This document shows positions 9,525 to 18,442 of a DNA stretch of 46,212 nucleotides, one piece after another (the stretch's first letter is position 1; each line of letters opens with the position of its first letter). Origin of the DNA: Phycisphaerae bacterium (lineage in GTDB: Bacteria; Planctomycetota; Phycisphaerae; Sedimentisphaerales; Anaerobacaceae); assembly GCA_030619925.1 (NCBI GenBank), contig JAUXAL010000025.1, positions 1 through 46,212 on the forward strand. Reading direction: 5' to 3'. A program made the translations under genes and the position numbers. The notes under the pieces are model-generated. The model had not been told where the DNA came from and did not search any database. It worked only from the letters and a program-made list of their open reading frames with translations.

Positions 9525-10106
9525 CTATACTGTTCCCGAAGTAAATGCTTTGCCGGCCTTGCGTCGTACGTGTTCGTCGGCATAACGGATGCCCTTTCCC
9601 TTATAAGGTTCCGGCGGCCTTATTTTTCGTATATCGGCAGCGAATTGTCCCAGGAGACATTTGTCTATTCCCGAAAGCGTGAACCTTGACGGAACTTCAT
9701 TGCCCCTGGTTGCGCCGGTCTGGATGTTCACTTTTATACCCTTTGGTATTACCCGCTCTACCGGATGGCAAAAGCCAACCTGGAAAGTCAGCTTTCCGCC
9801 CTGCTCTTTGACACTAAAGCCGGTGCCGTATATTTCCATTTTCTTCTCAAAACCTTTGCTGACACCGGTGAGCATGTTGGCAATCAGGGCACGCATTGTG
9901 CCATGTAGCTGCCTGTTCTGACGGTTTTGTGGATGTTTATTTTCAACCAATATTTTCCCCTCGGAATCGTCAATCTTTACTTTTATCCGGGGGTGACAGT
10001 CCATCTGGAGCTGGCCGAGCGGACCTGAGGCCTTGATGCACCGGTCCTTTTTCTCGACCGTAACTGCCTGAGGGATAATAACAGGTTTTTTCCCAATACG
10101 ACTCAT
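9525..10106 (-). CDS. rplF: 50S ribosomal protein L6
   Basis: L6 lies near the factor-binding site of the 50S subunit. The 193-residue product begins MSRIGKKPVIIPQAV and ends with the family segment IRKIRPPEPYKGKGIRYADE. It is slightly longer than the common 175-180 residues because of its C-terminal tail. Its ATG shares one base with the rpsH TGA (TGATG), so translation is probably coupled. Confidence 0.96.
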   Translation of the reverse strand: MSRIGKKPVIIPQAVTVEKKDRCIKASGPLGQLQMDCHPRIKVKIDDSEGKILVENKHPQNRQNRQLHGTMRALIANMLTGVSKGFEKKMEIYGTGFSVKEQGGKLTFQVGFCHPVERVIPKGIKVNIQTGATRGNEVPSRFTLSGIDKCLLGQFAADIRKIRPPEPYKGKGIRYADEHVRRKAGKAFTSGTV

Positions 10107-12722: not shown

Positions 12723-13142
12723 CTACAATGAATGCCTTCGCCTAACGAACCTGCACTTGATCGGCATTTTATGAGCGACCCTGACCAACGCCTGCTTTGC
12801 CACGACTTCGTTTACTCCGCCGATCTCAAAACAAACCTGGCCGGGCCTGACTATGGCGACCCAAAATTCGGGCTCACCCTTACCTTTGCCCATTCGCGTT
12901 TCCAACGGCTTGGAACTTACCGGCTTATGCGGAAACAGCCTAATATAAACTTTGCCCTCACGATGCAGAAAGTGAGTTGCTGCAACTCGGCCGGCTTCAA
13001 TGGTCCTTGCGGTTATCCAGCTGCCTTCCAGGGCCTGCAATCCGTATTCACCAAACGCTACGAAATTGCTTCTTGAGGCATTGCCCTTCATTGTGCCGCG
13101 TTGGCTCTTACGAAACTTAACTCTTTTCGGCATCATTGCCAT
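12723..13142 (-). CDS. rplP: 50S ribosomal protein L16
   Basis: L16 shapes the A-site tRNA-binding region. The 139-residue product contains [19 protein letters not shown] and [20 protein letters not shown]. The ATG at 13142 is supported by AGGTG about six bases upstream; Met codons three and four residues later are alternatives. The first 26 bases overlap the 3' end of rpsC in another frame. Confidence 0.95.
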
Positions 13143-13975: not shown

Positions 13976-14003
13976 ATCTCGTATCTCGTATTGCGTTTTA
14001 CGC
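13976..14003. repeat. Double ACGAGATA box upstream of rpsC
   Basis: In mRNA sense the spacer reads GCAATACGAGATACGAGATT directly before the rpsC ATG, two tandem copies of TACGAGA and no Shine-Dalgarno. It covers the entire gap to rplV. This is the clearest tandem copy of the family. Confidence 0.75.
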
Positions 14004-14546
14004 TTGTGTTACTGTTATATGTATGTGACAAGCCGTTTTGCGAATAGGATGCGCTCTGCCTCTGTCCTTTGGCATCCATCTTTTTGTGCCGATGCGGATT
14101 CCTGCATCATCAACACGGGCGCAGCTTACGTAGAGATTATCAACGTCGGCGTGCTGCTCATCGGCATCTGCAACGGCACTTCTCAGGACTTTGTCAATCA
14201 TCGTTGCGGCACGTTTTCTTGTGAACTTCAAGGTATCCATTGCGTCCTGAACGCTTCGACCGGTTATCAATTGCGCAACCAATCTGGCTTTGCGTGCTGA
14301 AATCGGAGCGTAGCGACAAGACGAGCGCCAGTCAACCAAATCATTTACCTCAACAGATAGAGCAGCTGCCAGGCGGCGAATATCATCTGCTCGCGGTTTA
14401 AGCTTGAAGAGACCTTTTTGCCAGTTTTTAACAGCCACTATTGCTTGCTTTTTATCAAGCCCCGGTCTGGCAAGCTGGCTGGCCAACTGCTCTATATCCG
14501 TCTTGCGCTCCTGGCAAAGCTCTTTTAACTTATCAGCACTTAACAT
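13998..14546 (-). CDS. rplV: 50S ribosomal protein L22 fused to an N-terminal HTH-like extension
   Basis: The L22 core, lining the exit tunnel, starts around residue 78 (CRYAPISARKARLVAQLITG) and ends GRAHPIRKTACHIHITV; it includes the expected tunnel hairpin region. Before it lies an extra segment of about 77 residues. Residues 6-20, 41-48 and 53-72 (ADDIRRLAAALSVEVNDLVD) follow the pattern of an XRE-type helix-turn-helix (LKEL..ER, NWQKGLFKLKP, LA.AL.V....L). The ATG at 14546 is preceded by GCGAGATACGAAAT. The extension is in continuous frame, and no ATG lies at the core boundary, so it is very likely translated. Total length is 182 against about 110-120 for ordinary L22. Confidence 0.93.
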   Translation of the reverse strand: MLSADKLKELCQERKTDIEQLASQLARPGLDKKQAIVAVKNWQKGLFKLKPRADDIRRLAAALSVEVNDLVDWRSSCRYAPISARKARLVAQLITGRSVQDAMDTLKFTRKRAATMIDKVLRSAVADADEQHADVDNLYVSCARVDDAGIRIGTKRWMPKDRGRAHPIRKTACHIHITVTQA

Positions 14547-14631: not shown

Positions 14632-14901
14632 TCATCTTATTTTCTTGCTTGAATGACCCTTAAATGTCCTTGTGGGCGAAAATTCACCCAGCTTATGCCC
14701 CACCATATCCTCGGTAACAAAAACCTTATGAAATATTTTACCGTTGTGGACCAGAAACGTGAAACCCACGAACTCCGGAATTATTGTGCATCTTCTTGCC
14801 CAGGTCTTTATTGGCTCACGAGAGCTGGAAACAGTTCGTTTGTTGACCTTGATAAACAGCTTCTCGTCAACGTATGGTCCTTTTTTAAGAGATCTTCCCA
14901 T
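14632..14901 (-). CDS. rpsS: 30S ribosomal protein S19
   Basis: S19 partners S13 in the 30S head. The 89-residue product begins [20 protein letters not shown] and contains [20 protein letters not shown] and [17 protein letters not shown], all family signatures. The ATG at 14901 follows GCAATACGAGATACCAAAG. S10 operon position between rplB and rplV. Confidence 0.97.
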
Positions 14902-17860: not shown

Positions 17861-18405
17861 AGCTTTCCTCTGTGCCACCGGCTTTGGCGGGAATAAGTCA
17901 ATCTCCTGCAAAAGCAGCAGCTTTTTATTTCAAATCCACACCTTAAAATCTATAAAACCCTAAAGTATATCAACTTATAAAGCAAAAAACAAAGTAAAAA
18001 ATCCGCTCTTAGCCTACAGTTTCTCTACTATCCGTCAAACCTATGTTGCTTGATTGCGGCAGGAAGGGCCTTTCTCATTGACTATTGACTATTTTCTATT
18101 TCCTATTGATATTGATTTGGAATCCCCATCCGTCTTTGGGCCCCGATTTTGCCTTGCCTGACAAAATCAGCCTCTTCTCAATAGTCAATATTCAATTGTC
18201 AATAGTCAATCACAGAATCTGCCTTCCTTAAGAGTTGGGGTTCGGACCGGCTACAGTCCTTCCAAAGCCATTTTACCGGCTTTTGGTAGACCCCTGAATC
18301 TAACAGAGTACCAAGTTAATCATCCCTGACCACAAAATCACAGATATGCCACAGCGCAACTAAATTTACGCAAAGTCATCCTTGACAATGCTCGCCACAG
18401 CTGAA
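17861..18405 (-). promoter_or_regulatory. Long untranslated leader of the S10 segment
   Basis: About 545 nt separate the predicted start site near 18406 from rpsJ. No open frame is credible inside. It contains the GACTATT palindrome (18077-18211) with a GATTTTG/CAAAATC centre, and an AAGCC-ATTTTACC-GGCTT hairpin near 18267-18283. S10 leaders elsewhere mediate L4 autoregulation; I cannot show an L4 site here. Confidence 0.5.
18077..18211. repeat. Large TTGACTATTGACTATT palindrome in the rpsJ leader
   Basis: The left arm (ATTGACTATTGACTATTTTC and similar) pairs with the right arm (CAATAGTCAATATTCAATTG and similar). Between them GATTTTG (18145-18151) pairs with CAAAATC (18162-18168). The structure is the same as in other spacers: tandem-word arms and a central hairpin. 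It would form part of the S10 mRNA leader. Confidence 0.75.
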
Positions 18406-18413
18406 AACCACTG

Positions 18414-18442
18414 AGAATATCACATAAATCAATTATTGTCAA
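18414..18442 (-). promoter_or_regulatory. Sigma70-like promoter for the S10 segment
   Basis: On the minus strand TTGACA (18437-18442) is a perfect -35 box, then 17 nt, then TATTCT (18414-18419), matching four of six -10 bases. The predicted start is near 18406. It lies between the fusA stop and rpsJ. Confidence 0.65.

Follow-up and report, generated by a model that had tools for sequence, protein, structure and literature searches.

In a Phycisphaerae bacterium, ribosomal protein L22 carries at its N-terminus an additional domain which, judged by sequence comparison, descends from XRE-type helix-turn-helix (HTH) proteins. The fusion recurs across the order Sedimentisphaerales and in a second, Phycisphaeraceae-like clade. 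We favour, with modest confidence, the interpretation that the HTH fold has been co-opted as a permanent part of the ribosome, close to the tunnel exit, and no longer reads operators.

An in-frame domain ahead of the L22 core

The window, by which we mean the whole stretch of 46,212 nucleotides that was analysed, contains rplV between S19 (14901..14632) and S3 (ending at 13117), all three on the minus strand. Its frame opens with an ATG at 14546 and closes with a stop codon at 14000..13998 (Table 1). The Pfam Ribosomal_L22 profile (PF00237) matched residues 78–179 (E = 8.6e-31; 106.7 bits against a cut-off of 28), which leaves 77 residues ahead of a complete core, and TIGR01044 gave 94.9 against a cut-off of 73.65. 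The following in-frame ATG is residue 103, within the core. We then searched 61 genomes of the family and order, our own included, four of which gave no L22 match. In all 57 others, the L22 frame spanned at least 183 codons, and an ATG with the same motif was located (start pattern ML[SN] or MII, chosen by us); the protein was exactly 182 amino acids long in 46 of the 57. The first-pass annotation had described about 77 residues in continuous frame with the L22 core, and these results bear it out. An artefact of assembly or frame is ruled out by the presence of the extension in 57/57 order genomes with L22 and in all 28 confirmed loci of the contig scan described below.

Table 1 Coordinates of the features discussed in the text
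Feature	Position	Strand	Basis
rplV, ribosomal protein L22 (uL22) with N-terminal HTH extension	13998..14546	minus	ATG start, 182 aa
N-terminal extension, residues 1-77, XRE-like helix-turn-helix domain	14316..14546	minus	sequence comparison
Presumed recognition helix region, residues 31-44	14415..14456	minus	presumed from alignment to XRE domains
NWxKG motif, residues 41-45	14412..14426	minus	N41 and W42 invariant in 62/62 aligned extensions
L22 core, residues 78-182	14001..14315	minus	PF00237; TIGR01044 above cut-off
Three-residue L22 hairpin insertion	14082-14114	minus	L22 residues ~145-155
Conserved RNA element, presumed 5' end of S10 operon transcript	18340..18408	minus	covariation model
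Promoter-like TTGACA-17-TATTCT directly before leader RNA	18414..18442	minus	consensus match only
CGTATCTCGTATTGCG repeat	13980, 14906, 16100, 16752, 12165, 14545 and others		pattern match

Purifying selection acts on the protein sequence of the extension, though less strongly than on the core. Among the 14 closest pairs, two of which lay between distant clades and were set aside as saturated, dN/dS ranged from 0.05 to 0.29 in the extension and from 0 to 0.15 in the core. The extension evolved faster than the core throughout, with a higher dN/dS in 12 of 12 pairs and a mean pN of 0.378 versus 0.229. Such selection bears on whether the extension reaches the mature protein at all. A TTG at residue 70 of the window sequence with GAGG 8 nt upstream, together with the finding that only 34 of 61 sequences carry an AGG-type Shine-Dalgarno sequence ahead of the long start, would fit internal initiation or proteolysis that yields an ordinary short L22. 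However, starts at the domain boundary were not conserved: 10 of the 61 sequences had none from −20 to +8, and a boundary start with a Shine-Dalgarno-like sequence was present in only 14. With the protein-level selection added, loss of the extension from the mature protein seems extremely unlikely.

Separately, the L22 hairpin region contained three additional residues in all eight order genomes of a 53-genome set and in none of the 45 others. We take this insertion to lie near the tunnel-lining part of L22.

XRE ancestry and distribution of the extension

The first-pass annotation had likened the N-terminal domain to XRE repressors. Sequence comparison supports XRE (Cro/C1-type) HTH ancestry, firmly only once relatives are included. 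The window protein alone gave a weak HTH_26 match (E = 0.016; 15.9 bits, below the cut-off of 22), and phmmer found no PDB match better than E = 0.1. A profile of the extension produced borderline partial matches in the PDB, the best being TniQ (E = 0.0019) and an HTH protein (E = 0.0054). When 62 extensions were scanned singly at E up to 0.1, 33 matched HTH_31, 30 HTH_26, 24 HTH_3 and 21 HTH_19; this loose scan reached 52 families overall, most by few members. From ten whole relatives of our own selection, four passed Pfam HTH cut-offs, L067 barely, with the best at 32.2 bits against 30.2 and 30.4 against 23. The profile of the order's extensions scored 41.7 in hhalign against 27 XRE domains, taken from 27 of 30 loci in the same genomes (L188, L179 and L184 left out), whereas 200 column shuffles reached at most 16.0. 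A five-member profile of extensions from the Phycisphaeraceae-like family f8 scored only 16.7 against the XRE domains.

The extension shares with XRE repressors (HTH_3, HTH_19, HTH_26, HTH_31) the sequence family, the order of segments and a W/G/P pattern; in our reading, the L080 stretch S-A-I-K-N-W-E-K-G-K-F-K-P aligns with the XRE pattern I..iErG..kP. It differs in its greater length ahead of and inside the presumed recognition helix, in altered base-reading positions, in its fusion to L22 and in that no operator was found. Across 62 aligned extensions from the two clades, N41, W42 and A60 were invariant. A basic residue occupied position 40 in 55, position 44 in 49 and position 48 in 51 of 61 extensions, and the mean net charge was +4.5 in 57 order extensions versus +2.0 in the 27 XRE domains.

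We analysed the distribution of the extension in 299 genomes of the class, using a profile to which f110 genomes contributed nothing. It matched 90 genomes, namely 61 of the 63 from Sedimentisphaerales, 27 from f8 (the number matched, not a share of all f8) and two from f110. The fusion that the first-pass annotation had proposed to seek in other Phycisphaerae is thus present there. The eight f8 genomes of a separate L22 survey were all among the 27. Matches occupied one place per genome, bar one weak additional match in G010, and the two order genomes without a match were G416 and G514, the former also without any L22 match. In the extension-free genomes of the 53-genome set, a start codon lay within about 20 residues of the L22 core. 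In 392 genomes of the phylum, the profile matched 22 that belong to this class; outside the class it gave a single match, short and marginal (E = 9.6e-4). A contig scan with the pattern SA[VI][KR]NWx[KAH]G[LR], which the window sequence itself does not fit, yielded 67 stretches. Of these, 28 were confirmed as relatives, all labelled as Planctomycetota or its subgroups, including Sedimentisphaerales and Phycisphaeraceae, and all 28 continued into L22.

The profiles of the order and f8 extensions matched each other strongly (hhalign 88). With the set size fixed at 10000, the order-only profile detected the five f8 extensions with E-values from 1.1e-15 to 1.2e-14, and because of this a common origin of the two appears likely. 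The genomes themselves are not close: in a tree of concatenated ribosomal proteins from the 53 genomes, the order and f8 lay far apart. With the 11 other ribosomal proteins concatenated (a quick tree under a simple model), a single clade of all extended genomes was rejected (p-AU = 1.2e-37), whereas f8 and f110 as one clade were not (p = 0.29). In a tree of the L22 core, built from 102 columns, which are few for 53 rows, the order formed a separate starred clade, and the f8 and f110 cores grouped with those of f9, f10 and f11 in a starred set. As far as this short alignment tells, L22 cores follow the species. Transfer of the whole gene between the two extended clades is unsupported, the L22-core tree keeping the order apart from f8 and f110. 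One ancestral gain would imply six losses on the ribosomal protein tree, some forks of which are weak, and unordered parsimony required three changes. One ancient gain with about six losses and transfer of the extension alone are both possible. Since families without the domain separate the extended clades, it must be dispensable or replaceable over long times.

A search for DNA operators, and a leader RNA, upstream of S10

XRE domains are typically DNA-binding repressors, and the first-pass annotation had suggested that this one might autoregulate the S10 segment. An L22 that bound an operator near the S10 promoter and repressed transcription would agree with the XRE family resemblance and with the basic residues retained in helix 3. 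The putative base-reading positions point elsewhere. We take positions 36 and 37 to be those of the base-reading Gln28 and Gln29 of the 434 repressor, and N41 to be that of Gln33. Positions 36 (V, A, I, T) and 37 (S, A, T, V) are mostly small and variable, so two of the three vary and only N41 is invariant. The invariant N41-W42, the basic positions 40, 44 and 48 and the variable positions 36 and 37 together are more in keeping with a constant partner than with an operator that drifts. Three palindromic half-sites, two of them A/T-rich, each occurred in 3 of 21 S10-upstream regions of the order and no half-site in more than 3, whereas 40 simple shuffles gave 2 at most. The test is a weak one: dinucleotide composition was not preserved in the shuffling, and one sequence accounts for two of the 21 regions. 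With two of the three presumed base-reading positions variable and no clear common operator, the proposed operator binding was not borne out, and we consider DNA-level autoregulation very unlikely.

A degenerate repeat, CGTATCTCGTATTGCG (reverse ATACGAGATACGAG), lies directly before the starts of several ribosomal genes. The window contains 11 matches at up to 3 mismatches, against 0.37 expected, and the genome 10 exact 14-mers, against 0 for the reversed control. We rejected ATACGAGATACGAG as an operator, because its 10 exact copies lie on 9 contigs (reversed control 0) and the repeat is therefore not operon-specific.

Sedimentisphaerales also possess a conserved leader RNA before S10, a new element. 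In the window it is located between EF-G and S10, and further copies include L136:2546-2614 and L222:8877-8945. It contains a conserved motif, AGCGAGC-hairpin-GCG-AGUU, within the helix CAGCC/GGCUG, and in Rfam it had no match above a gathering score. Among 35 sequences, changes on both sides were observed in 9 of 14 pairs. The covariation score of 0.244 was reached by none of 500 shuffles, and slid versions scored 0.064–0.115; the structure was defined from the same sequences that were used for this test. The support comes mainly from the inner helix, although two pairs there are mostly unpaired; the outer helix showed double changes at two pairs only, in one sequence per pair. Four single sequences folded no better than shuffled ones (z from −0.74 to 0.55). 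Under strict filters at E up to 0.01, the leader model matched 52 of the 63 genomes in the order and, outside it, 4 of 236; of these four weak matches, the two inspected (G585 and G473) overlap long open reading frames. In G416, only 478 bases separate the leader RNA from the end of a contig. The model found no match in the Phycisphaeraceae-like loci, which share the extension, and the leader motif was absent from 18 f8-type S10-upstream regions (two from one genome) and from two of f110. Comparison with the 23S rRNA of four class genomes and with E. coli 16S and 23S rRNA gave only chance-level matches (best E = 0.64), and we rejected the leader as an rRNA mimic.

In three loci labelled Phycisphaerales (L154, L156 and L157), the region upstream of S10 contains a common conserved promoter-like block (TTGAC ... 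TATGCT), and no relative of the order's leader RNA was detected there.

The element is probably the leader of the S10 operon and the target of a protein encoded in that operon; an action of the L22 domain on it is only a possibility. The E. coli S10 operon is under feedback through a structured 5' leader, exerted by uL4, according to a passage of PMC10931766. By analogy, free L22 might bind the leader through its HTH domain and repress the operon, which would agree with the covarying leader in most order genomes and with the extension carried by all 57 order L22 genes read. The ligand, however, could be any protein of the operon, and co-occurrence within one order amounts to one evolutionary event. 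The Phycisphaeraceae-like genomes, moreover, have the extension, yet no leader was found there. We regard such RNA-level feedback as distinctly unlikely. We think it improbable, too, that a permanent ribosomal HTH domain also recognises the leader in Sedimentisphaerales, allowing free L22 to shut down the operon that encodes it; if true, this would be an RNA-reading XRE domain built into the ribosome. Overall, the extension is conserved in the manner of a constant ribosomal component, and we found no evidence for gene regulation by it.

The extension as a putative ribosomal part

In the interpretation that we favour, an XRE-type domain became fused to the start of the L22 core, giving one protein in Sedimentisphaerales and in the Phycisphaeraceae-like genomes. 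As a single L22 was detected in the source genome (92.76% complete), every ribosome should carry the domain. The domain would have lost operator reading, and the basic face of helix 3 (K40, K44 and K48 with the invariant N41-W42) would contact rRNA or an adjacent protein close to the polypeptide tunnel exit, where the domain may help assembly or shape the exit. We infer this permanent contact from the Asn41-Trp42 pattern, the precedents for HTH domains on ribosomes and the position of uL22 at the exit. A passage of PMC5071890 describes uL22 as adjoining the tunnel exit. N-terminal extensions of uL22m and uL24m obstruct an alternative tunnel path in a fungal mitoribosome, in an extract of PMC7560712, and uL22 takes part in the first step of 50S assembly, as stated in part of PMC10931766. 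The first-pass annotation had also raised reuse of the fold for RNA binding, which agrees with the evidence and is unproven.

The same location would suit a docking platform at the exit site that recruits or excludes a nascent-chain factor, such as SRP, trigger factor or processing enzymes. In chloroplast ribosomes, differences in three other exit-site proteins, uL23c, uL24c and uL29c, were proposed to mean that factors are recruited in another way (a passage of PMC5071890). Because the basic conservation centred on N-W fits RNA at least equally well, we consider a docking platform unlikely.

We looked for a partner of the proposed ribosomal extension in rRNA and ribosomal proteins. No 23S rRNA segment length separated 8 extended from 7 non-extended genomes; the comparison excludes any second 23S copy, three genomes that were fragmented and two that gave no match. 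In 12 ribosomal protein alignments, which include the L22 core and leave out S3, no insertion or deletion was common to both extended clades and absent elsewhere, and one L4 column was the sole feature common to both and rare elsewhere. With no such difference in rRNA length or ribosomal protein indels, we name no partner.

The 23S rRNA of L270 (G039) and L285 (G404) contains insertions near E. coli positions 1860-1890 (317 versus 30 nt) and 1164-1183 (473 versus 19 nt), perhaps intervening sequences or introns.

The closest precedent is EDF1/Mbf1, likewise a Cro/C1-type HTH on the ribosome, where the HTH lies between rRNA helices; archaeal MBF1 is a weaker one (both from a portion of PMC7486125). 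These are separate factors of the small subunit in eukaryotes and archaea, whereas the L22 extension is fused to a core protein of the bacterial large subunit, and EDF1, unlike the fused extension, is recruited to collided ribosomes. Yeast Mbf1 works with uS3 in reading-frame maintenance, according to PMC6301793. MBF1/EDF1 proteins carry an N-terminal MBF1 domain or an archaeal zinc ribbon ahead of the HTH (the same portion of PMC7486125); the L22 fusion instead has its HTH at the extreme N-terminus with L22 directly after, and does not belong among them.

Chloroplast and mitochondrial uL22 are also enlarged at the N- or C-terminus, but their additions, in the excerpts that describe them, are extended stretches or helical elements rather than an HTH domain. 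PRK12279 (NCBIfam NF008917), a fusion of L22 with an unknown domain, likewise joins an additional domain to L22; the window protein matched only its L22 part (residues 80-179 to profile positions 10-108 of 311), at 48.8 bits against a cut-off of 526. Of 53 distinct L22 sequences matched in the PDB (E up to 1e-5), 51 had a match that started no later than chain residue 28; in the other two, one of them carrying the name chloroplastic, it started at residue 40. A domain as large as the L22 extension would therefore fit ahead of the core in none of these chains. No L22-HTH fusion was mentioned in the titles or abstracts of the papers retrieved.

These findings describe a core bacterial ribosomal protein remodelled by the fusion of a whole domain, apparently repressor-derived, that has been kept across an order; a second clade has a homologous extension. 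Alongside EDF1/Mbf1 of eukaryotes and archaea, the L22 fusion would offer a direct case for how DNA-binding folds become ribosomal parts, and bacterial tunnel exits may vary more than solved structures show.
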